In this document: positions 2-14,682 of the stretch, one piece after another | How the letters are laid out: each line of letters opens with the position of its first letter | How positions within the stretch are numbered: position 1 is the stretch's first letter | Source: Acidobacteriota bacterium | GTDB lineage: Bacteria; Acidobacteriota; Vicinamibacteria; Vicinamibacterales; UBA8438 | Direction of reading: 5' to 3' | NCBI GenBank assembly: GCA_011523485.1 | Contig: WTGR01000720.1 | Location: 1-14,740, forward strand | Length of the DNA stretch: 14,740 nt | Made by a program: the position numbers and the translations under genes | Notes under the pieces: generated by a model | What the model saw: the letters and a program-made list of their open reading frames with translations, nothing else | The model's database searches: none | Told to the model about the DNA's origin: nothing

Positions 2-421
2 TGGACGAGTGCCGCAACGGCTGGGACGGCGCGGCTCTGGCCCCAACGACAGGCTCTCTTGGACTCGATGACCAACAACAATGCGCTGACCGACTTGGAC
101 AACACGCTATTCCCTAATGACGGCTCTCACTATCGAGCCAACCAACTTCGGACGATCTGGAACATATTCGGCATAACGCTTCCAATTGTACCCAACATAC
201 AGTTAATTGGCCGCATTGATGAACTTGTAGACAAGCGCAACGCTATAGCCCACGGCAGGGAGACCGCTCGCGCTGTTGGGTCGCGGCATAGCACTGCAGA
301 AATGGAGGTGCGGTTTAGAGATACGGAGATCATCGCCTACTATGTGATAGATACGATGAACACCTACTGTTTGACCGGAGGGCTATTGCGCCCCCACAAT
401 AAGAGCGCCAAGTCAAAATAG
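2..421 (+). CDS. HEPN-domain RNase-like protein, 5'-incomplete
   Basis: The frame is open from the first bases of the window to a TAG at 419-421, so the N-terminus is probably outside the window. The first ATG in frame is at 68 and a TTG lies at 59. The diagnostic segment is DELVDKRNAIAHGRE, encoded around 215-260. It holds an R-N-x3-H (RX4H) motif, the catalytic signature of HEPN ribonucleases, and the surrounding pattern resembles the RiboL-PSP/MAE_28990-type HEPN families. Such proteins usually act as toxins or defence effectors that cut RNA. Families of this kind are roughly 200 residues or longer, so about 140 visible residues would be the C-terminal part. Composition is clearly AT-richer than the rest of the window from about base 60 onward, which suggests horizontal transfer. 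No antitoxin partner is visible. It could also be a decayed remnant whose GC-rich first 20 codons are not native. Confidence 0.62.
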   Translation, partial: WTSAATAGTARLWPQRQALLDSMTNNNALTDLDNTLFPNDGSHYRANQLRTIWNIFGITLPIVPNIQLIGRIDELVDKRNAIAHGRETARAVGSRHSTAEMEVRFRDTEIIAYYVIDTMNTYCLTGGLLRPHNKSAKSK

Positions 422-434
422 TACCCTCCTACTC

Positions 435-1730
435 CTATCCCATCGCAGCGGTGACCGCAATCTCCGACGCCACGCGAAACGTGAGCCGGTCGTGGGCGGC
501 GCGGACGGCGGTCACGACGTCCTCCGGACTTCTCCCCCGCGCGAAGATGAATCCGGGATAGCTCGCTCCCTCCGGCCACGGCACCAGCCGCTGGCCGGGC
601 TTGGTCGTGATGACGATGTCCTCCACCAGCGGAACCGCGCGTGCGGCGTCGAGCCCCACTACGCCCTGGCAGATTCCGGGGGCCGGCACCGGGATCATCA
701 TGACCGCCGACGCCTCTCGTGTCACGGCATAGTGACGGGCCACCGGGCGGCCGAGTGCGTGCTGGAACAGCACCTCCTCCAGGGAATGGCTGTCGCCGGT
801 GGGTCCGTCGAAGCGGAGGACCCGAGAGCAGAGCCCGCCGATGGGCCGCGCGGCCACCTCGATCACGACGGCGCCGCGGGGGCCGAGTCGGCACTCGGCG
901 TGGATGGGACCGTGCGCCAGACCGAGCGCCTCGACCGCGCCGCCCACCTGCTCGACCACATCTCTCCGTTCCTCGCGACGCAGGCGGTCGGGCGTAACGT
1001 AGATGGTCTCTTCGAAAAAGGGACCGTCGAGCGGGTCCGGCTTGTCGAAGATCGCGAAGATCTCCAGCTCTCCGTTCGTCACCACGCCTTCGACGGCGAC
1101 TTCGCGGCCCGGAATGTACTCCTCGATCGCCATCGAGTCGTTGGCCGGATCCTGGAGCAGCCGAACCTCCGGCGACGCGAGCAGCCGCCGCAGCCGCTCG
1201 GCCGCGCCAACCAGCTCGACCGGGGTGTCGGCGCGGATGACGCCCCGGCTGGCGACCAGCCCGAGCGGCTTGACGACGCAGGGATAGGCGACCCGCTCGA
1301 GCAGCACGCCGTTGTCGCGGTCCACGGGAATGGACCGGAACCACGGCGTGCGCAGTCCCGCCGCCCGCAACCGCATGCGGGTCTTCAGCTTGTGCCCGGC
1401 GACGCGGACGGCGGCCGGGGAATGCGCGGGCAGCCCGAGCATGCGCGCCGCGAGGGCGCCGATCAGCGCCGGCCTGTCGCCGACCGCCAGCACCCCATCG
1501 AACGGCGCCGCCGCGGCCGCGCCGGCGATAGCCCGCACAGCCGCATCTTCGTCGTGGAACCGGATCGGCACCGCGCCGTCCCGCCACGGGTCGTCCAGCC
1601 GGTGACACCGATCGGTGGCCAGAATCAGCTCGGCGCCGAGGCGCTCGGCCGCCGCACCGAACGACCGGATCTGATAACCGGTGGTGGCGGCGACCAGCAG
1701 CACACGGGGCGCACGGGTTGGCAGGCGCAT
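435..1730 (-). CDS. ATP-grasp domain ligase (carboxylate-amine ligase type)
   Basis: This is a 431-residue protein starting at the ATG at 1728-1730. The frame continues upstream to a TTG at 1934, but that extension has no family-like character. Residues 8-100 form a Rossmann-like N-domain starting with RVLLVAATTGYQ. The ATP-grasp core follows: GHKLKTR (112-118), ATP-binding lysine in CVVKP (K154), hinge EEYIPG (203-208), and metal/ATP ligands in HAE (277-279) and IEVAARPIGG (290-299). Residues 340-430 resemble the C-terminal extension of ATP-grasp enzymes of the L-amino-acid ligase/BacD group. These enzymes activate a carboxylate as an acyl phosphate and join it to an amine. The substrate cannot be told from sequence. 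No Shine-Dalgarno is obvious. It lies 220 bp downstream of the radical SAM selenoprotein gene on the same strand, so a shared pathway is plausible but inferred. Confidence 0.85.
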   Translation of the reverse strand: MRLPTRAPRVLLVAATTGYQIRSFGAAAERLGAELILATDRCHRLDDPWRDGAVPIRFHDEDAAVRAIAGAAAAAPFDGVLAVGDRPALIGALAARMLGLPAHSPAAVRVAGHKLKTRMRLRAAGLRTPWFRSIPVDRDNGVLLERVAYPCVVKPLGLVASRGVIRADTPVELVGAAERLRRLLASPEVRLLQDPANDSMAIEEYIPGREVAVEGVVTNGELEIFAIFDKPDPLDGPFFEETIYVTPDRLRREERRDVVEQVGGAVEALGLAHGPIHAECRLGPRGAVVIEVAARPIGGLCSRVLRFDGPTGDSHSLEEVLFQHALGRPVARHYAVTREASAVMMIPVPAPGICQGVVGLDAARAVPLVEDIVITTKPGQRLVPWPEGASYPGFIFARGRSPEDVVTAVRAAHDRLTFRVASEIAVTAAMG

Positions 1731-1950: not shown

Positions 1951-3321
1951 TCAGACCAGGGCCACCTGCCCGGTCGTGGGCTCGGCTCAGCAGTACCACG
2001 GTTCGTTCAGATACGGAACCTCCGCTCTCCGCCTCGCCCCCCTCGAGAACGCCGGTGGCGGGACGCATCCTTCGTGTGCACACGATAGAACGGCGTCGAA
2101 CACGTCGCGCCGGGAGGCGGTCAGGCGCCGGCCGACCAGGGCCGCCACTTCCTCGGCCATTCGGTCGACGCGGGGGTCGGGATGCCGCCACGGATAGACG
2201 AGAAGCTCGCGATCGAACGGGCCGATCCACCCGCGGAGGTCCTCCAGCTCGAGCAGCCGGGATCCGGCCGTCACGAGCAGTCGCAGCGCAAGCTGGATCG
2301 GGGCGACCTGCTCGACCAGATCGAGCGCTTCGATCTCGGCCAGCATCCTGCGGTAGCCGTCGAGCGTGGTCCACGGCGTGAAGGCCACGAAGGTCGGCGC
2401 CAGGGTCAGACCGGCCTTGCGGCACAGCCCCGCGGCGCGGGCGACGTCGTCGCGCGTGTGGCCCTTCTCCAGACGGCGCAGAATCGAATCGTCGAACGAC
2501 TCGACGGCGCTGGTGACGAAGAGACAACCCGTCTCGCGCAGGCGCGACAACAGGTCGGCATGGGCGACCAGGTGTTCCACCTTGATCGTGACGTCGTAGG
2601 TCAGGCCGGGAAACCGTCGTGCGATCCCCTCGACCACCCGCATGGCGTGCCCGACGCCGTTGAAGAAATCCGGATCGCCGAACGTGACGTGCTTCGCTCC
2701 CTGCTCCACCTGCGCCGCCACGTCGGCGATCACCACGTCCGGGCTCACGACGCGGAATCGGCCGCCGTAGACCGGGACGACCGGACAATGCCGGCACGCG
2801 TGCTTGCATCCACGGCTCGCCTCCGTATAGCCGGCGATCTTCCGGACTGCGCCCTGCTGCAGCGCCGCGTAGCGATCGAGCGGCGGGAGCCCCGCGCGCC
2901 AGGGGGGCATCAACGCCAGCCTCGGGAGACCGGGCGCCGGGACGAAACCCGTTCCACCGGTCGAGACCTCGGTTGCCAGGCGGACCAGATCGGCCTCGAA
3001 CTCGCCGCCGAGCACGTGCTCGACACCGATCGAGCGGAGGAGCTCCCCGTTCAGCGGCGCGTAGAGGCCGTAGGCGCACAGTCGGGCGTCGGGATTGAGT
3101 CGTCGGACCCGCTCCATCACCGGGACCGCGAGCCTCGTCGCGGTGTGCATGGGCAGGTGGAACGCCACGAGATCGGCCTCGACCACACCGGCATCGAACG
3201 GCTCGCGCGACAGGTCGAGACAGGCGACGTCCATCCCCGCGCGGCGCAGCCAGGCTGCCGGCGACGCGAGGCCGAACGGCTGGCGGCCCAGCTCGTAGGT
3301 GGCGACGAGAGCGACTCTCAT
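1951..3321 (-). CDS. CUAEP-tail radical SAM selenoprotein (in-frame UGA = Sec445)
   Basis: A 456-residue radical SAM protein when the TGA at 1987-1989 is read as selenocysteine; a conventional call stops at 444 residues. Residues 1-115 form a Rossmann-like domain of the cobalamin-binding type. The radical SAM core begins with ASRGCKHACRHCP, where C172, C176 and C179 (CX3CX2C) would hold the 4Fe-4S cluster that cleaves S-adenosylmethionine. Later segments DPDFFNG (216-222), VTIKVEH (244-250) and SAVESFDD (271-278) fit the barrel. C414, C419 and C444 are further cysteines near the C-terminus. The frame reads EPWYC-TGA-GCC-GAG-CCC, giving C-U-A-E-P, then ends at TGA 1951-1953. From memory this matches a named family, the CUAEP/CCAEP-tail radical SAM (seleno)proteins, whose reaction is not established. 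The ATG overlaps the symporter stop as ATGA, implying translational coupling. Radical SAM assignment is secure; Sec decoding is strongly indicated but untested. Confidence 0.88.
1954..1975 (-). promoter_or_regulatory. Bacterial SECIS hairpin
   Basis: Starting at the 12th base after the UGA, the mRNA can fold as GACC-GGGC, loop AGGUG, GCCC, bulged U, GGUC. This gives eight Watson-Crick pairs with one bulged U (1958) and a five-base loop at 1963-1967. An alternative fold has seven pairs and an eight-base loop. The loop starts 20 nt after the UGA. Known bacterial SECIS elements place the SelB-binding apical loop about this far downstream and carry G-U/GGU in it; the Escherichia coli fdhF element has an AGGUCU loop and a bulged U, on the other stem side. 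The final TGA stop follows the hairpin directly. Confidence 0.75.
1987..1989 (-). other. UGA recoded as selenocysteine (Sec445)
   Basis: On the minus strand the codons read TGG TAC TGC TGA GCC GAG CCC ACG ACC, that is W-Y-C-U-A-E-P-T-T. The residues after the TGA spell the AEP of the CUAEP tail, which would be an unlikely coincidence in untranslated sequence. The frame then continues to another TGA at 1951-1953. A SECIS-like hairpin begins 12 nt downstream. Adjacent Cys444-Sec445 could form a selenenylsulfide redox pair; that role is inference. Confidence 0.85.
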
Positions 3322-4754
3322 GGCGCGGCGGGTCGCAGCTCGACCTCGGCGTCGGTGGGCGGCGGGGTCGCGAGACTGACGACCACGAGGGTCGCGATGG
3401 ACAGGGCGAGCGCCGGGTACGCGGTCTGCCAACCGAAGAGGTACTCCGGGTTCCCGTCGACGGCCCGCGCCAGGCCCACGATCTCCCAGACGAGCGTCGT
3501 GAGCATGCCGGCCAGGATGGACGCGACGCCCCCCGCGCGCGTCGCCCGCTTCCACAGCAGAGCGCCGAGCAGCGCGGGCGTGATGCCGGCCCCGTACATC
3601 GTGTAGGCCCACAGCGCCATCGCGAGGATGGTCGGGAAAAAGCTCCCGGCGACGTAGCCGAGCGCGCCGACCGCGACCACGATGAGGCGCGTGTAGAGCA
3701 CCACCTGCCGGTCCGTGACCGCGGGGTTGACGAAGCGCTGATAGACGTCGCGGATCAGGTTCGTCGACGGCGTCAACAGGAAGCTGTTCGCGGTGGAGAC
3801 GACGATGGCCGCGGCGCCGCAGACCAGCAGCACGCCGAGCACCGGCGGCAGCGCGTCGGTGGCGACGCGGATGACTATCTCCTCCGATTCGGCCACGCCG
3901 AGTCCGCCGAGGGACAGGCTGCCGAAGATGCCGATCGAATCGATCAGGGTCTCGACGACGATCGTCCCGGCGATCCAGCCGACGACGGCCAGGCGCGCCG
4001 CCCGCTCGTCCCGCGCCGAGAAGAACTTCTGGTACATGTTGGCTTCGCCGAGCAGCAGGAACATCGTCGGCAGGAACAGAGCGAACGCGGCCTGCGCGCC
4101 CATGTCCCCGAACAGCGACACCTGGTGCGGCTCCAGGGCCGCGAGCGAAGCCGAGAGGCCTCCCGCATCGCCGATCAGGAACGCGACGCCGAACATCACC
4201 GCAACGGTCATCACCAGGCCGTTGCCGACGTCCAGGTAGGCGATCGACAGCATGCCGGCGAGCGACGTGAAGAGGATGCAGAACACCGCCGTGATCAGGG
4301 CGCCGGTATCCGGATCGACCCCGGCCACCAGGGCCAGCAGGCGACCGCCGCCGCGGAACTGGTACGCCGCGATGGTGGCGTAGGCCAGCACCGTGGTCAG
4401 CGTCCCGAGCACGCGCGCGGCCGGCCCGTAGCGCAGCTCGAGGATGTCGGGCACCGTGTACTGCGCGATGCGGCGCACGCGCGGGGCGATGAAATAGACG
4501 AGCGCGATGCCCACCCACGCGCCGGCCGACTGCCACAGCGCGGAGAATCCGGAGCGATAGCCGAGCCCGGCCCCGCCGAACAGACTGCCGGAGCCGATCC
4601 AGGTGGCGAGCAGCGTGAAGACGAGCACGCGCGCCGGCAGCCGCCGCCCCGCGACCAGGAAATCGTCGCCGGTCCGGACGCGGCGACTGCGCCACGCGCC
4701 GACCAGCACCAGCACCGACATGTAGACGATGACCGCCGTCAGCATGCCGGCCAT
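3318..4754 (-). CDS. Sodium/solute symporter (SSS family)
   Basis: A 478-residue polytopic membrane protein of the SSS (SLC5-like) family, which uses the sodium gradient to import small organic solutes. Landmarks are the first helix followed by SRRVRTGDDFLVAGRRLPA (23-41), the segment LLATWIGSGSLFGGAGLGY (48-66), and the later helix STANSFLLTPSTNLIRDVY, where serine and threonine residues normally form the Na2 sodium site. About 13 hydrophobic segments fit the family topology. Substrate is not predictable; relatives carry proline, pantothenate, sugars or others. The ATG at 4752-4754 fits the family N-terminus exactly. The stop TGA overlaps the radical SAM start (ATGA), so the two are almost surely one operon, and the transporter may supply that pathway's substrate (inference). 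No clear Shine-Dalgarno is present and the gene starts only 22 bp from the divergent phosphoesterase gene. Confidence 0.92.
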   Translation of the reverse strand: MAGMLTAVIVYMSVLVLVGAWRSRRVRTGDDFLVAGRRLPARVLVFTLLATWIGSGSLFGGAGLGYRSGFSALWQSAGAWVGIALVYFIAPRVRRIAQYTVPDILELRYGPAARVLGTLTTVLAYATIAAYQFRGGGRLLALVAGVDPDTGALITAVFCILFTSLAGMLSIAYLDVGNGLVMTVAVMFGVAFLIGDAGGLSASLAALEPHQVSLFGDMGAQAAFALFLPTMFLLLGEANMYQKFFSARDERAARLAVVGWIAGTIVVETLIDSIGIFGSLSLGGLGVAESEEIVIRVATDALPPVLGVLLVCGAAAIVVSTANSFLLTPSTNLIRDVYQRFVNPAVTDRQVVLYTRLIVVAVGALGYVAGSFFPTILAMALWAYTMYGAGITPALLGALLWKRATRAGGVASILAGMLTTLVWEIVGLARAVDGNPEYLFGWQTAYPALALSIATLVVVSLATPPPTDAEVELRPAAP

Positions 4755-4776
4755 TGTGGATCATAATGAGCGGTCG
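4755..4776. promoter_or_regulatory. Very short divergent intergenic region with overlapping -10-like boxes
   Basis: Only 22 bp separate the start codons of the symporter (minus) and the phosphoesterase (plus). Within them the AT-rich core ATCATAAT (4760-4767) reads as CATAAT on the plus strand (4762-4767) and TATGAT on the minus strand (4765-4760), each 5 of 6 matches to TATAAT. Transcription from either would begin at or within a few bases of the ATG, so both mRNAs might be leaderless or nearly so. The -35 positions fall inside the opposing genes and match the consensus poorly. Confidence 0.4.
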
Positions 4777-5496
4777 ATGGCGCTCGACGAGTACCGGCGC
4801 AAGCGGGACTTCAGTCGGACGCCGGAACCGGAGGGCGCCGCGGCCCGCAGGAACCGGCGGCGGCAGGCGGCCACGGACGGTCCGGAGGGCTACTTCTGCG
4901 TCCAGAAGCACCTCGCCAGCCATCTCCACTACGACCTGCGGCTCGAGCACGACGGCGTCCTGCTCTCGTGGGCCGTACCCAAGGGGCCGTCGCTGCAGCC
5001 GGCCGACAAGCGGATGGCGGTGCGGACCGAGGACCATCCGTACGAGTACGGGAGCTTCGAGGGCGTCATCCCGGAGGGCTACGGGGCCGGCATCGTGATG
5101 CTGTGGGACCACGGCGCCTGGAAGCCGGAGGTCGACGACGTGGGCGCCGCCCTGGAGAAGGGCGATCTGAAGTTCTCGCTCGACGGCTACAAGCTCAAGG
5201 GCTCCTGGGCGCTGGTGCGCACCCGGGACCGCACCGGAACCGCGCCGCGGCAGCGCGGCCGCAACTGGCTGCTCATCAAGCACGCCGACTTCTGGTCGGG
5301 GCCGATCGACATCACGGCGGTCGCGCCCCTCAGCGTGAAGAGCGAGGGAGACTTCGACGACATCCTGGCCGCGGACATGCCGGAGCTCTGGATCACCGGC
5401 CGTCCCGCAACGGCCGCCGGCAACGGCCGCGCCGCCGCCCTGACCCGTGAGGTCATCGAGCGGGCCGCGAGGAAGATCCTCGCCCGCCGGGGTTGA
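4777..5496 (+). CDS. Stand-alone LigD-type 3'-phosphoesterase
   Basis: A 239-residue protein consisting of the LigD 3'-phosphoesterase domain, with no ligase or polymerase domain attached. In bacterial non-homologous end joining this domain trims 3'-phosphate or 3'-ribonucleotide ends so they can be ligated. The core reads QKHLASHLHYDLRLEHDG (43-60), AVPKGPS (66-72) and EDHPYEYGSFEG (85-96). H45, H51, D53, R55 and H87 keep the spacing of the Pseudomonas aeruginosa LigD residues H42, H48, D50, R52 and H84, a constant offset of three, so the manganese site looks intact. The family-typical start MALDEYRRKRDFSRTPEP picks the ATG at 4777 over upstream in-frame ATGs at 4729 and 4744. No ku or ligase gene lies in the window; partners would be elsewhere. 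It is divergent from the symporter and convergent with yvcK. Confidence 0.92.
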   Translation: MALDEYRRKRDFSRTPEPEGAAARRNRRRQAATDGPEGYFCVQKHLASHLHYDLRLEHDGVLLSWAVPKGPSLQPADKRMAVRTEDHPYEYGSFEGVIPEGYGAGIVMLWDHGAWKPEVDDVGAALEKGDLKFSLDGYKLKGSWALVRTRDRTGTAPRQRGRNWLLIKHADFWSGPIDITAVAPLSVKSEGDFDDILAADMPELWITGRPATAAGNGRAAALTREVIERAARKILARRG

Positions 5497-5499
5497 CGG

Positions 5500-6474
5500 C
5501 TATTGCAGGAGCCGCTGCGCCAGGACGCTCCAGACGGCGTAGGCGAGGCGCCGGCGCGAATGACGGGCGATCTGGCGCTGGGAGAAGTGACCTGTGACCA
5601 GCTCGCACGCCGCGGGAATGTCGCCGACGGGCAGCAGCTCCTTGTGCTCCTTCGCGTACCGGGCGAGAACGTCGGGCGGCGGGGTGGCGTTGTTGGCGAT
5701 GGCGACGTCCACGGGCCGGCCGATGGCGTCACCGACGCGGCGCACCGCCTCGCCCACCGAGAAGCCGTGCATTCCCCGGCCCTCGGTCAGGATGTTCGTC
5801 ACGAGCACGATGGGCCCCGCGGTCGCGCGAACCGCCTCCGCCACGCCCCGGACCAGGAGAATCGGCATCAGGCTGGTGTAGAAGCTTCCCGGCCCGATCA
5901 CCACGGCGTCGAACCCGCGGATGGCCTCCGAGGCGGCTGTGTGCACGTTCGGCTCCGGATCGAGCCAGATCCGCCTGATTCGCCGCCCATCGGTCTGCTC
6001 GCGGTCCACGCCGACCTCGCTGACCGCGCGTGAGCCGTCCTCGTACTCCGCGTAGAGGGTCGACTGCTCCACGCTGACCGGCAGGACGCGGCCGTTGCAG
6101 TCGAGCAGCGTCCGCAAGCCGTCCACGGCGGCGAGAAAATCGCCGCTGTACTGCTCCATCATCGAGAGGAGCAGGTTGCCGCCGGTGTGCCCGCGAAGCC
6201 GGCCGTTCTCGAGGGCCGGCAGGCGCGAGAGGAGCAGGCGCCGGGCTTCGCCCTCGTTCCTGGCGAGCGCGAGGGCGCACTTCAGCACGTCGCCGGGAGG
6301 CAGGACGCCGAGCTCGTCCCGAAGCTGACCCGAGCTGCCGCCGCTGTCGAACATCGTGACGACGGCGTTCACCCGCAGCCACGGGTTCTGCTTGAGGCCG
6401 CCGAGCAGGCTGGGCAGCCCGGTTCCGCCGCCCAAGCACCCGACGTTGACTTCCCGCAACCGCACGCGGCGCAT
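5500..6474 (-). CDS. yvcK: YvcK/CofD-family UDP-GlcNAc-binding gluconeogenesis factor
   Basis: A 324-residue YvcK-type protein. Hallmarks are GGGTGLPSLLGGLK (15-28), the segment DSGGSSGQLRDELGVLPPGD (43-62), HTGGNLLL (96-103) and, further on, VVIGPGSFYTSLMPILLV followed by the NILTEGRGMHGFS region. In Bacillus and mycobacteria YvcK (CuvA in the latter) binds UDP-N-acetylglucosamine and is needed for normal cell shape and growth on gluconeogenic carbon. The related CofD transfers a lactyl-phosphate group in F420 synthesis, but the signature here fits YvcK better. I chose the ATG at 6472-6474 because it leaves a short lead before the glycine-rich loop; a GTG at 6540 and an ATG at 6510 are also in frame. 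The usual rapZ and whiA neighbours are absent. Its stop lies 3 bp from that of the phosphoesterase, so there is no room for a separate terminator. Confidence 0.93.
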   Translation of the reverse strand: MRRVRLREVNVGCLGGGTGLPSLLGGLKQNPWLRVNAVVTMFDSGGSSGQLRDELGVLPPGDVLKCALALARNEGEARRLLLSRLPALENGRLRGHTGGNLLLSMMEQYSGDFLAAVDGLRTLLDCNGRVLPVSVEQSTLYAEYEDGSRAVSEVGVDREQTDGRRIRRIWLDPEPNVHTAASEAIRGFDAVVIGPGSFYTSLMPILLVRGVAEAVRATAGPIVLVTNILTEGRGMHGFSVGEAVRRVGDAIGRPVDVAIANNATPPPDVLARYAKEHKELLPVGDIPAACELVTGHFSQRQIARHSRRRLAYAVWSVLAQRLLQ

Positions 6475-6565
6475 TATGCCACACACCCCGCCGGCCCCCG
6501 CCCGTTGCATGCCCCGGAACGACCGCCGCCGGCCCGGCACGGCCCGCGCGGCAGAATTCGCCCCT

Positions 6566-8205: not shown

Positions 8206-9189
8206 ATGAACGTGGATATCCCTCGTGCGTTCCTACCGGCCCGCGGCCTCGACGGCGGGCACCGGATGACCCTCTACACGTGGGCCAGACCGCGGCACTT
8301 TCCGCGGCTGCCGGCGCCGGTGCGGCGCTACTTCGACGTCGCCCCGGACGCACGCGTGCTGGCCCACTGTCATTGGCAGCGGTCGCCCTCGGCGCGGCCC
8401 ACGCTGCTGGCGCTGCACGGTCTCGAAGGCTCGAGCAGCGCGCACTACATGCGCGGGCTGGCGGACAAGGCCTTCACCGCGGGCCTCAACGTGGTGCTGC
8501 TCAACCAGCGCAACTGCGGGGATACCGAGCATCTGTCGCGAGGCCTCTACCACTCCGGACTCTCGTCCGATCCCGCCGCGGTCATTCGCGAGCTGACCGA
8601 GGTGGACCGCCTGCCGGCCATCGCCGTGGTGGGGTACTCCCTGGGCGGCAACCTCGGGCTGCGGCTGGCCGGCACGGCGCCCCCGCGCGTCCTGCGCGCG
8701 GTCTGCGCCATCTCGCCGACCATGGATCTGGGACGGTGCGTGGACGCTCTCGAGCGACGGCCGAACGCCATCTATCAGTGGAACTTCGTGCGCAACCTGA
8801 AGCGCCGCATGCGGCGGAAGGCGCACGTCCTGCCCGGCGCGTTCAACCTCGACGCGCTCGACCGAATCCGCACCGTCCGCGAGTTCGACGATGCGTTCAC
8901 GGCGCCGCACCACGGGTTCCGGGATGCCGCGGACTACTACCACCGGGCCAGCAGCCTGCGGGTCGTCGACCGCATCGCGGCGCCGACGCTGATCATCAGC
9001 GCCGAGGACGACCCCTTCGTGCCTCCCGAGCAGTTTCGGGATCCGGCGGCGGCCGCGAATCCGAACGTCACCACGGCCATCACGCGCCACGGCGGGCACT
9101 GCGGCTACTATGCGGATCCGACCCCCGGCTTCGACGGGTACTGGGCCGAACGGACGGCGATCGACTTCGCGCGCCGCCATCTCGGCTGA
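8206..9189 (+). CDS. YheT-type alpha/beta hydrolase
   Basis: A 327-residue hydrolase of the YheT / AB-hydrolase-4 group (esterase or lipase-like, natural substrates poorly known). The oxyanion region is LLALHGLEGSSSAHYMRGL (67-85). NQRNCGDTEHLSRGLYHSG (100-118) is the characteristic family segment. The nucleophile elbow is GYSLGG with Ser145, the acid lies in SAEDDPFVP (Asp268 or Asp269), and the catalytic His298 is in HGGHCGYY. All three triad positions are present, so it should be active. It has no signal peptide and is probably cytosolic. The ATG at 8206 lies 10 bp after the membrane-protein stop, suggesting cotranscription. The frame is open upstream to 7921, but that part is out-of-frame reading of the membrane-protein gene. 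It converges on the DUF72 gene with 21 bp between stops. Confidence 0.9.
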   Translation: MNVDIPRAFLPARGLDGGHRMTLYTWARPRHFPRLPAPVRRYFDVAPDARVLAHCHWQRSPSARPTLLALHGLEGSSSAHYMRGLADKAFTAGLNVVLLNQRNCGDTEHLSRGLYHSGLSSDPAAVIRELTEVDRLPAIAVVGYSLGGNLGLRLAGTAPPRVLRAVCAISPTMDLGRCVDALERRPNAIYQWNFVRNLKRRMRRKAHVLPGAFNLDALDRIRTVREFDDAFTAPHHGFRDAADYYHRASSLRVVDRIAAPTLIISAEDDPFVPPEQFRDPAAAANPNVTTAITRHGGHCGYYADPTPGFDGYWAERTAIDFARRHLG

Positions 9190-9210: not shown

Positions 9211-9921
9211 TCAGCCCGGAGCCAGGCGTTCGAGCAGACGCTTCGCGAAGTCGGGTCCCGCCCCGCGCTCCTCGTGCTTGAAGTAGACGTAGACCTCCTG
9301 ACAATCACCGGTGCTGCCGGCAATCGTCTCGGCCCACCGCGCGAGGTCGGCGTCACCGTACCCCTGGTCGCGCAGCCTGAAATAGCCGTGCCGGGCGGTC
9401 ACGTGAATCGGCGTCCGCAGTCGCTCGCTGTCGGCGATGCACAGCGCCGCCCCGTGCGCTGCCAGAAGCTCCGTGACCGCCGGATCGTGCCACGAGGCGT
9501 GCCTGAACTCGAAGGCGGCGCGGGCGTCCGGCGGCAGCGTGTCGAGGAATCGCGCGAGCACGTCGACGTTCTTGCGGAACCACGGGGGAAGCTGGAACAG
9601 CAGCGCCCCGCGCTTGTCGCCGAGGGTCTCCGCGGCGCCGCAGAATGCGCGCGTGATCTCCGCGCAGTCGGCCAACCGCGCCTCGTGCGTGATGCGGCGC
9701 GGCGCCTTGAGCGTAAAGCGGAAGCCGGCCGGCGTCACGGCCGACCAGCCCGCGAGCAGCCGCTGGGTCGGCAGACGGTAGAACGTGTAGTTGATCTCGA
9801 CCGTGTCCAGCCGCTCCGCGTAGTACGGGAGCATCTTCTTCTGCGGGAACCTCTCCGGGTAGAAGGAGCCCTTCCACTCGGGGTAGTTGTAGCCTGAGGT
9901 ACCGACCCGGTAGCGAGGCAT
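9211..9921 (-). CDS. DUF72 (YecE-like) protein
   Basis: A 236-residue member of the DUF72/YecE family, TIM-barrel-like proteins of undetermined function. The start MPRYRVGTSGYNYPEWKGSFYP is typical, followed by the family motifs TVEINYTFYRLP (40-51), FRFTLKAPRRITH (67-79), LLFQLPPWFRKN (107-118), AFEFRHASWHD (135-145) and, at the C-terminal end, VYVYFKHEERG. Length fits the family. The start is the ATG at 9919-9921. It is the last gene of a leftward series headed by the TlpA-like thioredoxin, 80 bp after the small CxxC protein gene. Whether it shares their transcript is unknown. No catalytic mechanism is established for the family. Confidence 0.92.
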   Translation of the reverse strand: MPRYRVGTSGYNYPEWKGSFYPERFPQKKMLPYYAERLDTVEINYTFYRLPTQRLLAGWSAVTPAGFRFTLKAPRRITHEARLADCAEITRAFCGAAETLGDKRGALLFQLPPWFRKNVDVLARFLDTLPPDARAAFEFRHASWHDPAVTELLAAHGAALCIADSERLRTPIHVTARHGYFRLRDQGYGDADLARWAETIAGSTGDCQEVYVYFKHEERGAGPDFAKRLLERLAPG

Positions 9922-10638: not shown

Positions 10639-11202
10639 CTACAGCAACGCCTCGATGTCTCGCTGAAACGCTTCGCGCGTGGCGATGCCCATGTGCGTAC
10701 GGCACAGGGTACCGTCCCGATCGATGAAAAAAGTGACCGGCAGGCCCCAGATCGGCCCGTACGCTTCCTGATGGAAATCCTCCCGCCCGAGCCCCACCAG
10801 CATCGGGTAGTTGACCTGGAACTGGGCGGCGAAGGGCCGGATCTGCTCGGGAGTGTCGTCCACGGAGAGTCCGAGCACGACGAGCCCGTCGTCCCTGTAC
10901 CGGCGCTGGAACTCGACGAACCAGGGAATCTCGATCTTGCAGGGACCGCACCAGGTGGCCCAGAAGTTCAAGAGTATGACATTGCCCTTGAGCTCCGCCA
11001 GGTTCACCGCGTTGCCGTCGATGTCGCGCAGCGTGAAGTCGAGCGGCGCGGGCCTGGCGTCGGCGTCGCAGCGTCCCTCCTGGGTCGTGCCGCGCTCGAA
11101 GGGCGTAAACGAGAGCAACGTGACGCCGCGCACCGCCGGCAGCGTCAGGAACGCGAGGGCGAACGCCGCACCGATTGCTACGATCCACCGCCTGGCTGTC
11201 AT
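10639..11202 (-). CDS. TlpA-like membrane-anchored thioredoxin-fold protein
   Basis: A 187-residue protein with one N-terminal membrane segment (residues 6-26, IVAIGAAFALAFLTLPAV core) and a TlpA/AhpC-TSA-like thioredoxin domain facing the periplasm. The redox motif is FWATWCGPCKIEIP, with C85 and C88. The cis-proline is in WGLPVTFFID (P155). Such proteins reduce or exchange disulfides outside the cytoplasm, often for cytochrome c maturation, though no cytochrome genes are nearby. Two extra cysteines (C45, C167) lie outside the motif. The ATG at 11200-11202 is chosen because AGGAGAGG lies just upstream and it puts the membrane helix at the terminus; an upstream in-frame start at 11259 adds 19 residues without homology-like character. 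Two small cysteine-containing genes follow on the same strand, the nearer one 75 bp away. Confidence 0.92.
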   Translation of the reverse strand: MTARRWIVAIGAAFALAFLTLPAVRGVTLLSFTPFERGTTQEGRCDADARPAPLDFTLRDIDGNAVNLAELKGNVILLNFWATWCGPCKIEIPWFVEFQRRYRDDGLVVLGLSVDDTPEQIRPFAAQFQVNYPMLVGLGREDFHQEAYGPIWGLPVTFFIDRDGTLCRTHMGIATREAFQRDIEALL

Positions 11203-11538
11203 GTCCTCTCCTGCTGAATCGGCGCCCTGCCCGTCCCTGGGACCGCGTCCGGCCTTCACGGGCGGGTAAGCGGCGGCGCCACCCGTCGCCCGCCTTCAGA
11301 TTAACGCCTGCGGCGGGTGAATCTCAAGGCGAACCCGCTTCCACGCGCGGTGTCCTCCTGCGAGTGCGCCGGCGTCACCGGCAGGCGACAGTCTCGGCCG
11401 TCCTCCCGCCGGCAGGAGCGGCACGCGCCTTGCTTCCGAGGATCCCGCAATTGCCGGCGGCCGGACCAGGGGATAAGATGGCTGAAGGTGCTGTCCATCG
11501 GCCAAGCCACCCGGCCCGCCGGCCGCCGTGAGGTTCAC
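11203..11538. promoter_or_regulatory. Divergent intergenic region, 336 bp
   Basis: This gap lies between the leftward thioredoxin gene and the rightward metalloprotease-barrel gene. The rightward frame is open through the last 222 bp, but the translation there is arginine- and cysteine-rich and precedes a normal signal peptide, so I read it as non-coding. It holds the thioredoxin ribosome binding site (AGGAGAGG, minus strand, next to 11203), one sigma-70-like promoter at 11451-11479, and a GTGAGG leader at 11527-11532 before the ATG at 11539. No RNA gene or repeat array is apparent. Confidence 0.6.
11451..11479 (+). promoter_or_regulatory. Candidate sigma-70 promoter for the metalloprotease-barrel gene
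   Basis: TTGCCG (11451-11456) and TAAGAT (11474-11479) are separated by exactly 17 bp; each matches its consensus hexamer at four of six positions. The expected start of transcription near 11486 would give a leader of about 50 nt. Confidence 0.45.
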
Positions 11539-14500
11539 ATGATCCGCAACCACCCCGAACGCCAATCCCGACGGTGGATGACCGCGCTGGTCGCGCTCCT
11601 CATCGCGGCAATCGGCGCGCCGGCCGCCGCTCAGCAGTTTGCGCCGTACTACGGCAAGAACCGCGTCAAGTGGGACAAGTTCGACTGGCACATCTACACG
11701 ACGGAGCACTTCGACATCTACTACTACCCGGAGCTCGAGGAGCACCTCGAGCGCGTGGCCGCCTACGCCGAGAGCGCGTACCAGCAGCTCAGCGCCGACC
11801 TGCGTCACGACCTGGCGTTCAGCGTCCCCCTCGTGGTCTTCAAGACGCACAGCGAGTTCGAGCAGCAGAACATCTTCCCGGGCGGCAGCCCGGAAGGGGT
11901 CGGAGCGTTCGCCGAGCCCTACCGCAACCGCATCGCGCTGCCCATCGACGAGCCGCCCGACGGACTCTACCGCCTGATCACGCACGAGCTGACCCACATC
12001 TTCGAGTTCGACATCATCCCGCGGTCCATGATCCGGCAGACGGTCCCGCTATGGGTCGACGAGGGCCTCGCCGAGTTCATGGCCGGCGTCTGGCGTCCGC
12101 TCGACCTGATGCAGGTCCGGGACGTGGCGGTCGCCGACATCGTGCCGTCGATGACGGAGTTCCAGCGGTACGGCGGCTTCGCGAGCGGACGCGTGGTCTA
12201 CAACCTGGGCCACGCGGTCTTCGAGTTCATCGAGGAGCGCTGGGGACTCGAAGGAATCCGGCAGTTCCTCTTCGCGCTCCGGCGCAATGCAATCGGCGGC
12301 GGCGAGGACCCCTACGAAGAAGCGTTCGACCTCGAGGCGGAGGAATGGGACGACGCGTTCAAGTCCTATCTCGACGACCGGTTCGAGGCGTTTCGCGACA
12401 AGGAGCGCCCGACCGACTACGGGCGCAATCTCGCTCCCGATCCCTTGCGGAGCCGCTATCCGGTGGTCTACTCGCTCGAGGCGTCTCCCTCGGGCGAGGT
12501 GATCGCGGCGATGGCGGTCAACCGGAAGGACCGGGAGGCCGACATCGTGCTGCTGTCGTCCCGGACGGGTGAGGTCATCCTGAACCTGACGGAGGGATTC
12601 GACCAGGAATTCGGGTTCGACTACATCGCCCAGACTCCCCGCTGGAACACCGTGCCCTGGATGTCGTGGTCGCCGGACGGCGATCGCATCGCGTACATCG
12701 TGCGCCACGGCAAGGGCAAGGCGCTCGCCGTCCAGAACGTCGTCACGCGCGAGCTCGAGCGGCTGATCGATCTCGAGGTGGTCGACGAGCCCGAATCGCC
12801 CGACTTCTCGCCGGACGGACGCACGGTGGTCTTCGCCGCGCTGAACCGCGCCGTGGGCGACATCTACGAGATCGACCTCGAGACCGAGGAGATCACCAAC
12901 CTGACCAACAGCGCGTTGGCCGACTACGCGCCCTTCTACTCGCCGGACGGCCGCTCGGTCGTCTACCTGGCGCGCGTCAGCGGCAACAACAAGCTGTTCC
13001 GGCTCGATCGGGAGACCGGACAGCGCCGGCAACTGACCTTCGGCACGCATGACGAGGCCGGCGGGCAGTTCATCGACGAGCGTACCATCGTGTTCGCCTC
13101 GACCGCGGTCGATCCGACGCAGCCGATCGACCCGGAGACGGCCCGCGACGGCGAGATCTTCAATCTCTGGACACTCGACCTCGAGAACGGCGCGCTGCAC
13201 CAGCTCACGGACAATGCCACCGGCGTGGTCAATCCGATCGTCCTCGCGCCGGATGAGGATTCCGACCTGCCACGCATCGGGTTCATCACCTACTTCAGGG
13301 CGGAGTACGGGCTGTACACCATCGAGTACGACGAGCCGCTCTACACGGCCGACGCCACCGATTTCGGCGGGCCGGGCCCACTGATCGACTTCCAGGCGCC
13401 GCTGACCCACACCCTGAATCCCGCCAACTCGCGGCGCAAGGGCCGGTTCGAGAACATGTACATGCAGGGCCGGCCGAACTTCGGCGTCGGCCTGACCAAC
13501 AGCGGCGACGTGCTCGGCGGCACGATGATCAGCTTCGCCGACGTGCTCGGCGACCAGGTGTTCAACATCCAGGCCTACTCCATCCAGACCTACCGCACCT
13601 ACGGTGCGTCATACGTGAATCTGGCCGGCCGGCTGCAGTACGCCCTGCAGGGCATCTCGTCCGAGCAGTATTTCTACGGTCTCGGGGCGTACTTCGCTCC
13701 CAGCCTGGCTTTCCTGAGCCGCGACGACGCCATCGCCACGCGGCGGTCGAACGGCGGCAGCGCCATCGGCATCTATCCTCTCGACCGCTTCCGGCGGGTC
13801 GAGTTCTCCGCGGGCGTCTACAACTTCAACGAGACGTTCGCCAACGAGGCGCTGCAGGCGCAGTCGGACGCGTTTCAACAACAACAGTTCGGAACCACGC
13901 TCTTCCGCGACGGCTCGTTCATGCCGTTCGGCACCCGCTTCTTCCAGGAGACGACCGTCTTCCGGGAGTACGGGCCGGTCGCCGGCAACACGGTGATGGC
14001 GGGCTACGAGTACGCGCCCGGGTTCGGCGGGTTTCTGTCGCGCCAGACCGTCGACCTCGATGCCCGCTACTACCTGCGGGTCGCCGAGAACGGGGTCCTG
14101 GCGTTGCGCGGGCGCGCGTTCAACAGTTGGGGCGACTTCCCCGACTTCATCTTCTTCGGCGGCCAGTCCGAGATGCGCGGCTACGACTACCTGCATTTCC
14201 TCGGCCACAAGGCGTTCTTCGGCAACGTCGAGCTGCGCTTTCCGCTCGTCGAGGCCATGGCGACGCCCATCGGCATCCTGGGCGGCATCCGGGGCACCTT
14301 CTTCTTCAACATCGGCGCGGCGGCCATTGCCGGTCAGCCCTGGAACCTGTGGTCCGCGGGCGACGAATGGGTGCGACCGATCACCGGCTACCGCGCGAAC
14401 TACCTGGCGAACGTCGAGGGGCAGGCCTCGGAGCCGGTCTTCGGTCTGCCCGTCCCGATCAGCGGGTTCCGTCTCAACAACGCACGCGCCTCGTACGGCT

Positions 14501-14682
14501 TCGGTCTCACGACGTTCGCCATCGGTTTCCCCGTCCACATCGACTGGACATGGCCGACGCTCTTCAATCGGGAGTGGGAAGACACGGTTTTCGCGACCGA
14601 GGCGCAGTTCGCCGGCTTCCTGCGCGGCAGTGACTACTTCCGCAGGGTGCGCATGTCGATCTGGATCGGCTACGACTTCTAA
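11539..14682 (+). CDS. Secreted gluzincin-like metalloprotease / TolB-like propeller / outer-membrane beta-barrel fusion
   Basis: A 1047-residue exported protein. Residues 1-31 are a signal peptide (basic RRWM, hydrophobic ALVALLIAAIG, cleavage near APAAAQ). Residues about 40-330 form a peptidase-MA/gluzincin-like domain: LITHELTHIFEF carries HEXXH (H149, E150, H153), and LWVDEGLAEFMAG supplies the third zinc ligand, E175 or E178. Residues about 340-620 are a TolB/WD40-like propeller with SPDG blades near 377, 423 and 467. From about 635 the sequence alternates like an outer-membrane beta-barrel of the BamA/Omp85 type, including GGQSEMRGYDYLHFLGHKAFFGNVELRFPL, quoted here in two parts: GGQSEMRGYDYLHFLGH then KAFFGNVELRFPL. 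It ends WIGYDF with a terminal aromatic, the barrel-assembly signal. The protein would sit in the outer membrane with protease and propeller in the periplasm. Substrate is unknown. The ATG at 11539 is preceded by GTGAGG. Confidence 0.85.
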   Translation: MIRNHPERQSRRWMTALVALLIAAIGAPAAAQQFAPYYGKNRVKWDKFDWHIYTTEHFDIYYYPELEEHLERVAAYAESAYQQLSADLRHDLAFSVPLVVFKTHSEFEQQNIFPGGSPEGVGAFAEPYRNRIALPIDEPPDGLYRLITHELTHIFEFDIIPRSMIRQTVPLWVDEGLAEFMAGVWRPLDLMQVRDVAVADIVPSMTEFQRYGGFASGRVVYNLGHAVFEFIEERWGLEGIRQFLFALRRNAIGGGEDPYEEAFDLEAEEWDDAFKSYLDDRFEAFRDKERPTDYGRNLAPDPLRSRYPVVYSLEASPSGEVIAAMAVNRKDREADIVLLSSRTGEVILNLTEGFDQEFGFDYIAQTPRWNTVPWMSWSPDGDRIAYIVRHGKGKALAVQNVVTRELERLIDLEVVDEPESPDFSPDGRTVVFAALNRAVGDIYEIDLETEEITNLTNSALADYAPFYSPDGRSVVYLARVSGNNKLFRLDRETGQRRQLTFGTHDEAGGQFIDERTIVFASTAVDPTQPIDPETARDGEIFNLWTLDLENGALHQLTDNATGVVNPIVLAPDEDSDLPRIGFITYFRAEYGLYTIEYDEPLYTADATDFGGPGPLIDFQAPLTHTLNPANSRRKGRFENMYMQGRPNFGVGLTNSGDVLGGTMISFADVLGDQVFNIQAYSIQTYRTYGASYVNLAGRLQYALQGISSEQYFYGLGAYFAPSLAFLSRDDAIATRRSNGGSAIGIYPLDRFRRVEFSAGVYNFNETFANEALQAQSDAFQQQQFGTTLFRDGSFMPFGTRFFQETTVFREYGPVAGNTVMAGYEYAPGFGGFLSRQTVDLDARYYLRVAENGVLALRGRAFNSWGDFPDFIFFGGQSEMRGYDYLHFLGHKAFFGNVELRFPLVEAMATPIGILGGIRGTFFFNIGAAAIAGQPWNLWSAGDEWVRPITGYRANYLANVEGQASEPVFGLPVPISGFRLNNARASYGFGLTTFAIGFPVHIDWTWPTLFNREWEDTVFATEAQFAGFLRGSDYFRRVRMSIWIGYDF

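Follow-up and report, generated by a model that had tools for sequence, protein, structure and literature searches.

The window analysed here, a 14,740-nucleotide contig (WTGR01000720.1) of an Acidobacteriota soil bacterium of the order Vicinamibacterales, carries a gene for a radical S-adenosylmethionine (SAM) protein whose reading frame, at 1951..3321 on the minus strand, continues through an in-frame TGA codon. As judged from the comparison of related genes, this TGA almost certainly encodes selenocysteine (Sec), which would make the product a selenoprotein of the NF040546 family. Five observations lead to this assignment: the codon found at the same column in relatives, a conserved hairpin in the message, the choice of synonymous codons around it, the presence of sel genes in the nearest genome, and repeated switches between Sec and Cys in the family tree. 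The gene is flanked by a symporter gene and an ATP-grasp ligase gene, and the nearest characterised family of its product is ArsL.

The read-through product comprises 456 residues, with Sec445 at 1987..1989; 444 codons run up to and include the TGC of Cys444 (1990-1992). Its C terminus reads EPWYC-U-AEP-TTGQVALV, in which CUAEP occupies residues 444-448. An earlier sequence-only reading of the window had noted the codons TGC TGA GCC GAG CCC at the end of the gene, which are found at 1992-1978 of the minus strand, and eight residues past CUAEP before a second TGA, which lies at 1951-1953; the 12 residues that it expected to be lost from a protein stopped at the first TGA are Sec and the 11 that follow. 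The family of radical SAM (seleno)proteins with CUAEP or CCAEP tails that it named exists in NCBIfam as NF040546, whose model matches the window protein with 617.3 bits (curated cut-off 500) over positions 1-467 of 468. By its sequence the gene is a member of this already named NCBI family, from which nothing sets it apart. Truncation by gene callers, also predicted, is seen in the best 28 of 120 listed homologues, which are 443-445 residues long, end at the TGA and span 97% of the read-through protein. Similarly, the listed coding sequence of Thermomicrobium roseum stops at WFC, and the translated match continues to residue 448. Pfam identifies a Radical_SAM domain in the window protein (8.2e-15), and a CX3CX2C motif (Cys172, Cys176 and Cys179; 2785..2808, minus strand), the predicted [4Fe-4S] cluster site, is invariant in three alignments. 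A profile search of the PDB returned four distant radical SAM sequences and no others.

The codon at the TGA column was read in a set of 136 loci, reduced to 119 by the removal of duplicates, in 106 of which the tail pattern was readable. It is TGA in 87, TGC in 17, TGT in two and nothing else, and the TGC-TGA tail is conserved far more than chance would allow. Of the 13 loci outside the pattern, three (L098, L099 and L101) are partial matches and ten were inspected individually: two read WFC followed by TGA (L126 and L175), five read WFCC (L129, L137, L143, L156 and L097), one has the pair swapped to U-C (L161), one is masked with N (L172) and one is cut (L096). Among 152 scored family members, the tail is Cys-Sec in 110, Cys-Cys in 41 and Sec-Cys in one, so that the column holds Sec or Cys in relatives; homologues keep the AEP tail, and none ending at Trp-Tyr-Cys without AEP was found among them. 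These 152 sequences and four ArsL were placed on a FastTree phylogeny with local support, from whose alignment the tail was left out and in which seven of 159 rows, not being scorable, do not appear. At least 18 switches between Sec and Cys occur on this tree, and well-supported branches alone force 13 changes. Exactly eight residues follow AEP in 74 of the 87 Sec genes versus nine of the 19 Cys genes, and a fixed length in the Sec genes is what would be expected if the constraint acts on the RNA.

The single swapped tail belongs to a contig of Anaerolineae bacterium CHL1 (L161), where TGA TGC at 11351-11356 gives W-Y-U-C-A-E-P. The genome concerned carries selB and selD, and a sequencing error would have to consist of two substitutions. 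If the swap is real, Sec could occupy either position of the vicinal pair.

Downstream of the TGA, window fold and family covariation define a hairpin of the selenocysteine insertion sequence (SECIS) type at 1954..1975 (minus strand), with a stem GACC-GGGC / GCCC-(U bulged)-GGUC and an AGGUG loop. In 84 Sec genes the family stem pairs columns 17-22 with columns 28-33, counted from the T of TGA (window 1957-1973), at a fixed distance. The window has a C-U mismatch at columns 18 and 32; the fold bulges out the U of column 32 and lengthens the stem to columns 15-36. Across the 84 genes, 89.5% of paired cells are complementary versus 78.9% in shuffled alignments, and the covariation score is 0.321 versus 0.159, with none of 500 shuffles as high in either measure. 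Double changes within the hairpin likewise exceed those in all 500 shuffles. Two of the five covariation measures do not stand above the shuffles, namely how many pairs show a double change (411 of 500) and how many pair types occur (429 of 500). Pairing falls to 42-52% when the partner arm is slid by one to three columns, a comparison in which the hairpin has an advantage because its structure was derived from the same sequences. In the group with GACC/GGTC arms the hairpin, judged by eye, is retained with its register shifted by one. An Rfam scan of the window at the gathering threshold returned no match.

Codon choice points in the same direction. When compared with synonymous re-codings, the Sec genes fold with a median z-score of -1.55, and in 38 of 84 no more than five of 100 re-codings are equally stable; the Cys genes fold no better than their re-codings (median z -0.03, with one of 19 passing). 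The hairpin thus accompanies the Sec genes and is missing from the Cys genes. Where the 3' arm holds an Ala codon, that codon is GCT in 61 of 76 Sec genes, and GCT makes up 8% of the Ala codons in the gene bodies.

The sequence-only reading had also held that the organism makes selenocysteine. The nearest genome compared, G001, whose protein is 95% identical to that of the window, has selA, a partial selB at a contig end, a tRNA-Sec with a UCA anticodon and selD; no tRNA gene lies within the window itself. Among 100 genomes of relatives, 51 pass the NF040546 cut-off, and one of these (G084), in which the contig ends at the TGA, was excluded from the Sec/Cys count. In the remainder, selA scores above its cut-off in 39 of 42 genomes with the TGA form versus four of eight with the Cys form (Fisher p 0.0085, for genomes that are related to one another). 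Of the 13 genomes with a completeness of at least 90 and no convincing selA by eye, the TGA form is absent and the Cys form occurs in four. The four Cys-form genomes with selA break a strict rule that the Cys form goes with absence of the machinery. Three of them (G029, G045 and G061) have selA and selB, by eye, about 3 kb or less apart on a single contig, and in many relatives the two genes are on different contigs; this arrangement may reflect a selenium cassette that was regained or is of foreign origin. The selD genes of G031 and G101, the latter being the genome of the swapped tail, each read through one TGA, as expected for a selenoprotein SelD.

Reading the TGA as a true stop, with the conserved tail a coincidence or a relic, agrees with the default code, and the window stretch by itself folds barely better than its dinucleotide shuffles, a difference that is not significant (z -0.90; 30 of 200 shuffles equally stable). 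Since the window's own fold is not significant, the case for the hairpin is made by the family comparison. The codon column, that hairpin, the synonymous choice, the sel genes of G001 and the many switches all oppose a stop, which we consider to have next to no chance of being correct.

The family is large, with at least 7,996 homologues. Besides the relatives counted above, 71 genomes out of 301 from the phylum to which L161 belongs, a record titled Anaerolineae, score above the family cut-off. Of 582 loci, 80 named ones were kept, and their titles include Acidobacteria, Methylomirabilota/NC10, Gemmatimonadetes, Chloroflexi and Solirubrobacter; one carrier record is titled Vicinamibacterales and one Vicinamibacteria, and G031 is a relative of the same order.

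In the window the gene order is symporter, radical SAM selenoprotein, ATP-grasp ligase. The sodium:solute symporter gene (3318..4754, minus strand; PF00474, 3.3e-35) has a stop codon that overlaps the start of the radical SAM gene (ATGA). The ligase gene (435..1730, minus strand), 220 bases downstream of the radical SAM gene, encodes a 431-residue ATP-grasp protein of the L-amino acid ligase type with matches above the Pfam cut-offs to PF13535 (ATP-grasp_4), PF18603 (LAL_C2) and PF18130 (ATPgrasp_N). The nearest solved structure is that of the L-amino acid ligase BL00235 (3vot, 2.7e-41). Of the 98 loci with enough sequence, 75 have a ligase homologue on the same strand no more than 1 kb downstream; in a second phylum, where the gene order is changed and the ligase is at times upstream or on the opposite strand, 25 of 40 loci have one somewhere in the region. 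From this linkage, the radical SAM protein and the neighbouring ligase probably share one pathway. The transporters beside CUAEP genes vary in type and include the sodium:solute symporter, a POT peptide symporter, a DHA2-type MFS exporter and MATE.

Other genes accompany the family in subsets of loci. A DUF169 (COG2043) gene is assigned by clustering to the position directly downstream in seven loci (L126, L130, L146, L154, L159, L175 and L180); Pfam confirms it in L130, L154, L175 and L180, and in L154 a CpaM-type methyltransferase gene follows. DUF169 homologues also occur in nine of the 40 second-phylum regions. In L250-L254, L256 and L257, all Cys forms of the second phylum, the ligase gene is about 2.6-2.7 kb away on the upstream side of the radical SAM gene, and in L251 a lipoyl-synthase-like gene lies about 0.7 kb downstream, in a cluster of seven loci from which one representative was scanned.

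The nearest characterised NCBIfam family to the window protein is ArsL (NF040542), which it matches with 256.7 bits over residues 4-389; the next family scores 54 bits. Identity to three aligned ArsL is 31-32%, and Y376, W378, H380, D382 and D386 are invariant in all seven rows of the alignment. Transfer of the 3-amino-3-carboxypropyl (ACP) group of SAM to arsenic by ArsL is predicted in the available text of PMC8552651 and, in that of PMC12159101, reported as demonstrated, with Yao 2024 as the source. ArsL also has an ATP-grasp neighbour: such a gene is present in each of the seven ArsL regions inspected, which were drawn from 16 ArsL-type plasmid hits and of which five come from Priestia. 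The ArsL-linked protein of Alicyclobacillus is 25% identical to the window ligase over 398 residues, and that of Priestia 23% over 250 residues. With the Alicyclobacillus ligase as query in 20 carrier genomes, the best match is the CUAEP-adjacent gene in 17. For G001 and G034 the top match is a yggX-adjacent gene on a different contig, that of G001 being 93% identical to the window ligase, and in G061 another gene is first and the CUAEP-linked ligase second. By these comparisons, two related radical SAM enzymes retain two related ATP-grasp partners, and the simplest reading of this paired kinship is a shared plan in which an unusual amino acid would be made from SAM and then ligated.

From the kinship with ArsL and the gene linkage, both of which are present in the sequences, we infer a chemistry, a ligation and a role for the tail. 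The radical SAM protein would cleave SAM noncanonically, in the ACP manner, and build an amino acid on an acceptor; the C-terminal Cys-Sec pair would hold or reduce this acceptor, a role that in ArsL may fall to the CC of RCCLKC; the ATP-grasp ligase would couple the new amino acid to a second one, yielding a dipeptide; and the transporter would move the product or a precursor. The chain up to ACP chemistry and ligation is the likeliest of the mechanisms considered and has, in our estimate, a probability of about 0.4. ACP-type chemistry, suggested by the ArsL kinship, has a little less than an even chance, and by the same comparison it is a tentative suggestion that Cys-Sec acts as an acceptor holder rather than as a pure redox relay. 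The sequence-only reading had suggested a redox-active or metal-binding tail, an idea that the comparison with ArsL would narrow to a putative acceptor-holding one. Binding of cobalamin may be possible as well: the match to the B12-binding domain PF02310 in Pfam, at 22.8 bits, is below the cut-off of 32.1, and the possibility is kept because the predicted fold resembles that domain.

Several observations weigh against this proposal. The score against the ArsL model stays under the curated cut-off (450), which leaves room for a changed reaction. The available text of PMC8552651 gives arsQML as the arsinothricin cluster, which implies that no ligase is needed there. The ArsL-linked ligases are above the Pfam cut-off for ATP-grasp_4 only; LAL_C2 is below its cut-off, and ATPgrasp_N is below cut-off in Alicyclobacillus and gives no match in Priestia, which makes the function of these ligases less clear. 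No ligase is found within 1 kb downstream in 23 of the 98 loci, nor anywhere in 15 of the 40 second-phylum regions. Finally, the best match of the predicted fold is AprD4, a radical SAM dehydratase.

The AprD4 match bears on an alternative in which the protein performs ordinary 5'-deoxyadenosyl radical chemistry, such as dehydration or epimerisation, and its Cys-Sec tail, acting as a redox relay in the manner of the ribonucleotide reductase tail, reduces the active site anew at every turnover. No canonical NCBIfam family comes nearly as close to the window protein as ArsL does, and the two have related ligase partners, so we regard this alternative as unlikely, if a serious contender. Another possibility takes the ArsL kinship and the related ligase at face value and makes the protein effectively an ArsL, with an organoarsenical like arsinothricin as product. 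An arsenic-transporter homologue does lie about 5 kb away in four of the 40 second-phylum regions, and a weak ArsM-like match is present in two. Searches for homologues of ArsR, ArsN1, Acr3-like proteins (E 1e-4 for these three), CobW, CMD and aquaporin found none in the 119 loci, the window included, and weak ArsM-like matches occur in three of them. Because the arsenic-gene queries are otherwise empty, arsenic is unlikely as the acceptor; the absence of an RCCLKC tail and the score below the ArsL cut-off also speak against an organoarsenical product, which is very improbable.

A third alternative concerns iron. Here the pathway, by ACP or 5'-deoxyadenosyl chemistry, would yield an intracellular ligand or low-molecular-weight thiol for the upkeep of iron or iron-sulphur (Fe-S) clusters and not a secreted product. 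Within the L161 phylum (301 genomes), strong yggX matches (PF04362, E below 1e-27, a threshold set after the list was seen) are found in 48 of 75 CUAEP-positive versus two of 226 CUAEP-negative genomes; when all yggX matches are counted, the figures are 50 of 75 carriers versus 34 of 226 non-carriers. In 40 of the 48 genomes with a strong match the distance to the CUAEP gene, judged by eye, is at most 5 kb, and yggX often stands immediately upstream in the same orientation; of the 51 carriers among the 100 relatives, 41 have it no more than 6 kb away. L150 and L250 also have an adjoining NfuA-like Fe-S gene, in a cluster that spans 13 of the 40 loci and of which L250 alone was scanned. Against this, the counts are not independent, because the genomes are related and common ancestry inflates them; among the relatives, yggX is present in 88 of 100 genomes regardless and on the opposite strand in 51 of 62 loci; no yggX was found in the window; and importer and exporter neighbours suggest membrane traffic. 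An iron ligand or thiol is thus a doubtful outcome, held by us at well under even odds. It is improbable, on present sequence comparisons, that the ligase pathway combines these features as a widespread selenium-dependent route to a SAM-derived, metal-binding dipeptide that acts together with YggX, a protein of Fe(2+) trafficking. If true, Acidobacteriota, Chloroflexota and others would possess a low-molecular-weight metal ligand that has so far gone undiscovered, produced by a relative of arsinothricin synthase with a changed acceptor atom.

The window resembles G001 and G003 down to position 431, just past the ligase gene, and no further; at this place those relatives have yggX. Positions 1-431 have a GC content of 51-56% in 300-base windows versus about 70%, and a weak HEPN-like open reading frame (59-421, plus strand; 26.2 of 28.4 bits) sits in the place of yggX. 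From the similarity break, the GC drop and this open reading frame, the segment seems to be a small island or an exchange. The rest of the window holds ordinary neighbours: a LigD 3'-phosphoesterase domain protein (4729-5496, plus), a CofD/YvcK-type protein (5500-6540, minus), an alpha/beta hydrolase (8206-9189, plus), a DUF72 protein (9211-9921, minus), an AhpC/TSA thioredoxin-like protein (10639-11259, minus) and a PD40 propeller protein (11578-14682, plus).

The CUAEP/CCAEP proteins thus form a large family, in contigs labelled with several phyla, whose inspected gene calls are cut at the conserved tail. The parallel with ArsL and its ligase, the yggX link and the natural Sec-Cys swap of L161 raise the case above the routine, and a reaction hitherto unassigned becomes specifically testable. 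A function for the family was not found in the literature searched; the available text of the review PMC13188914 treats other radical SAM selenoproteins (TIGR04167 and TrsS) and has no NF0405 entry, and two Haft papers that it cites may describe the family. New here, from sequence comparison, are ArsL as the nearest characterised family and the ATP-grasp partner common to both.

Among known systems, NF040546 corresponds to the window protein in its full-length match, in the CUAEP tail and in having Cys variants among relatives; the name of the model is silent on gene neighbourhood and on ArsL. The window ligase shares ATP-grasp_4, ATPgrasp_N and LAL_C2 with the L-amino acid ligases BL00235, BacD and DdaF, and has PDB matches to BL00235 and BacD, but it and its L109 homologue are below each listed NCBIfam cut-off. 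The radical SAM diol dehydratase AprD4 (6fd2) differs in being 20% identical and in that the alignment reaches no further than residue 419, short of the Cys-Sec tail. ArsL shares with the window protein homology over residues 4-389, the CX3CX2C motif, a vicinal C-terminal Cys pair and an ATP-grasp neighbour; it differs in having an RCCLKC tail where the window protein has WYCUAEP, in the Cys-Cys pair of the three ArsL aligned, and in the arsenic genes that surround it.
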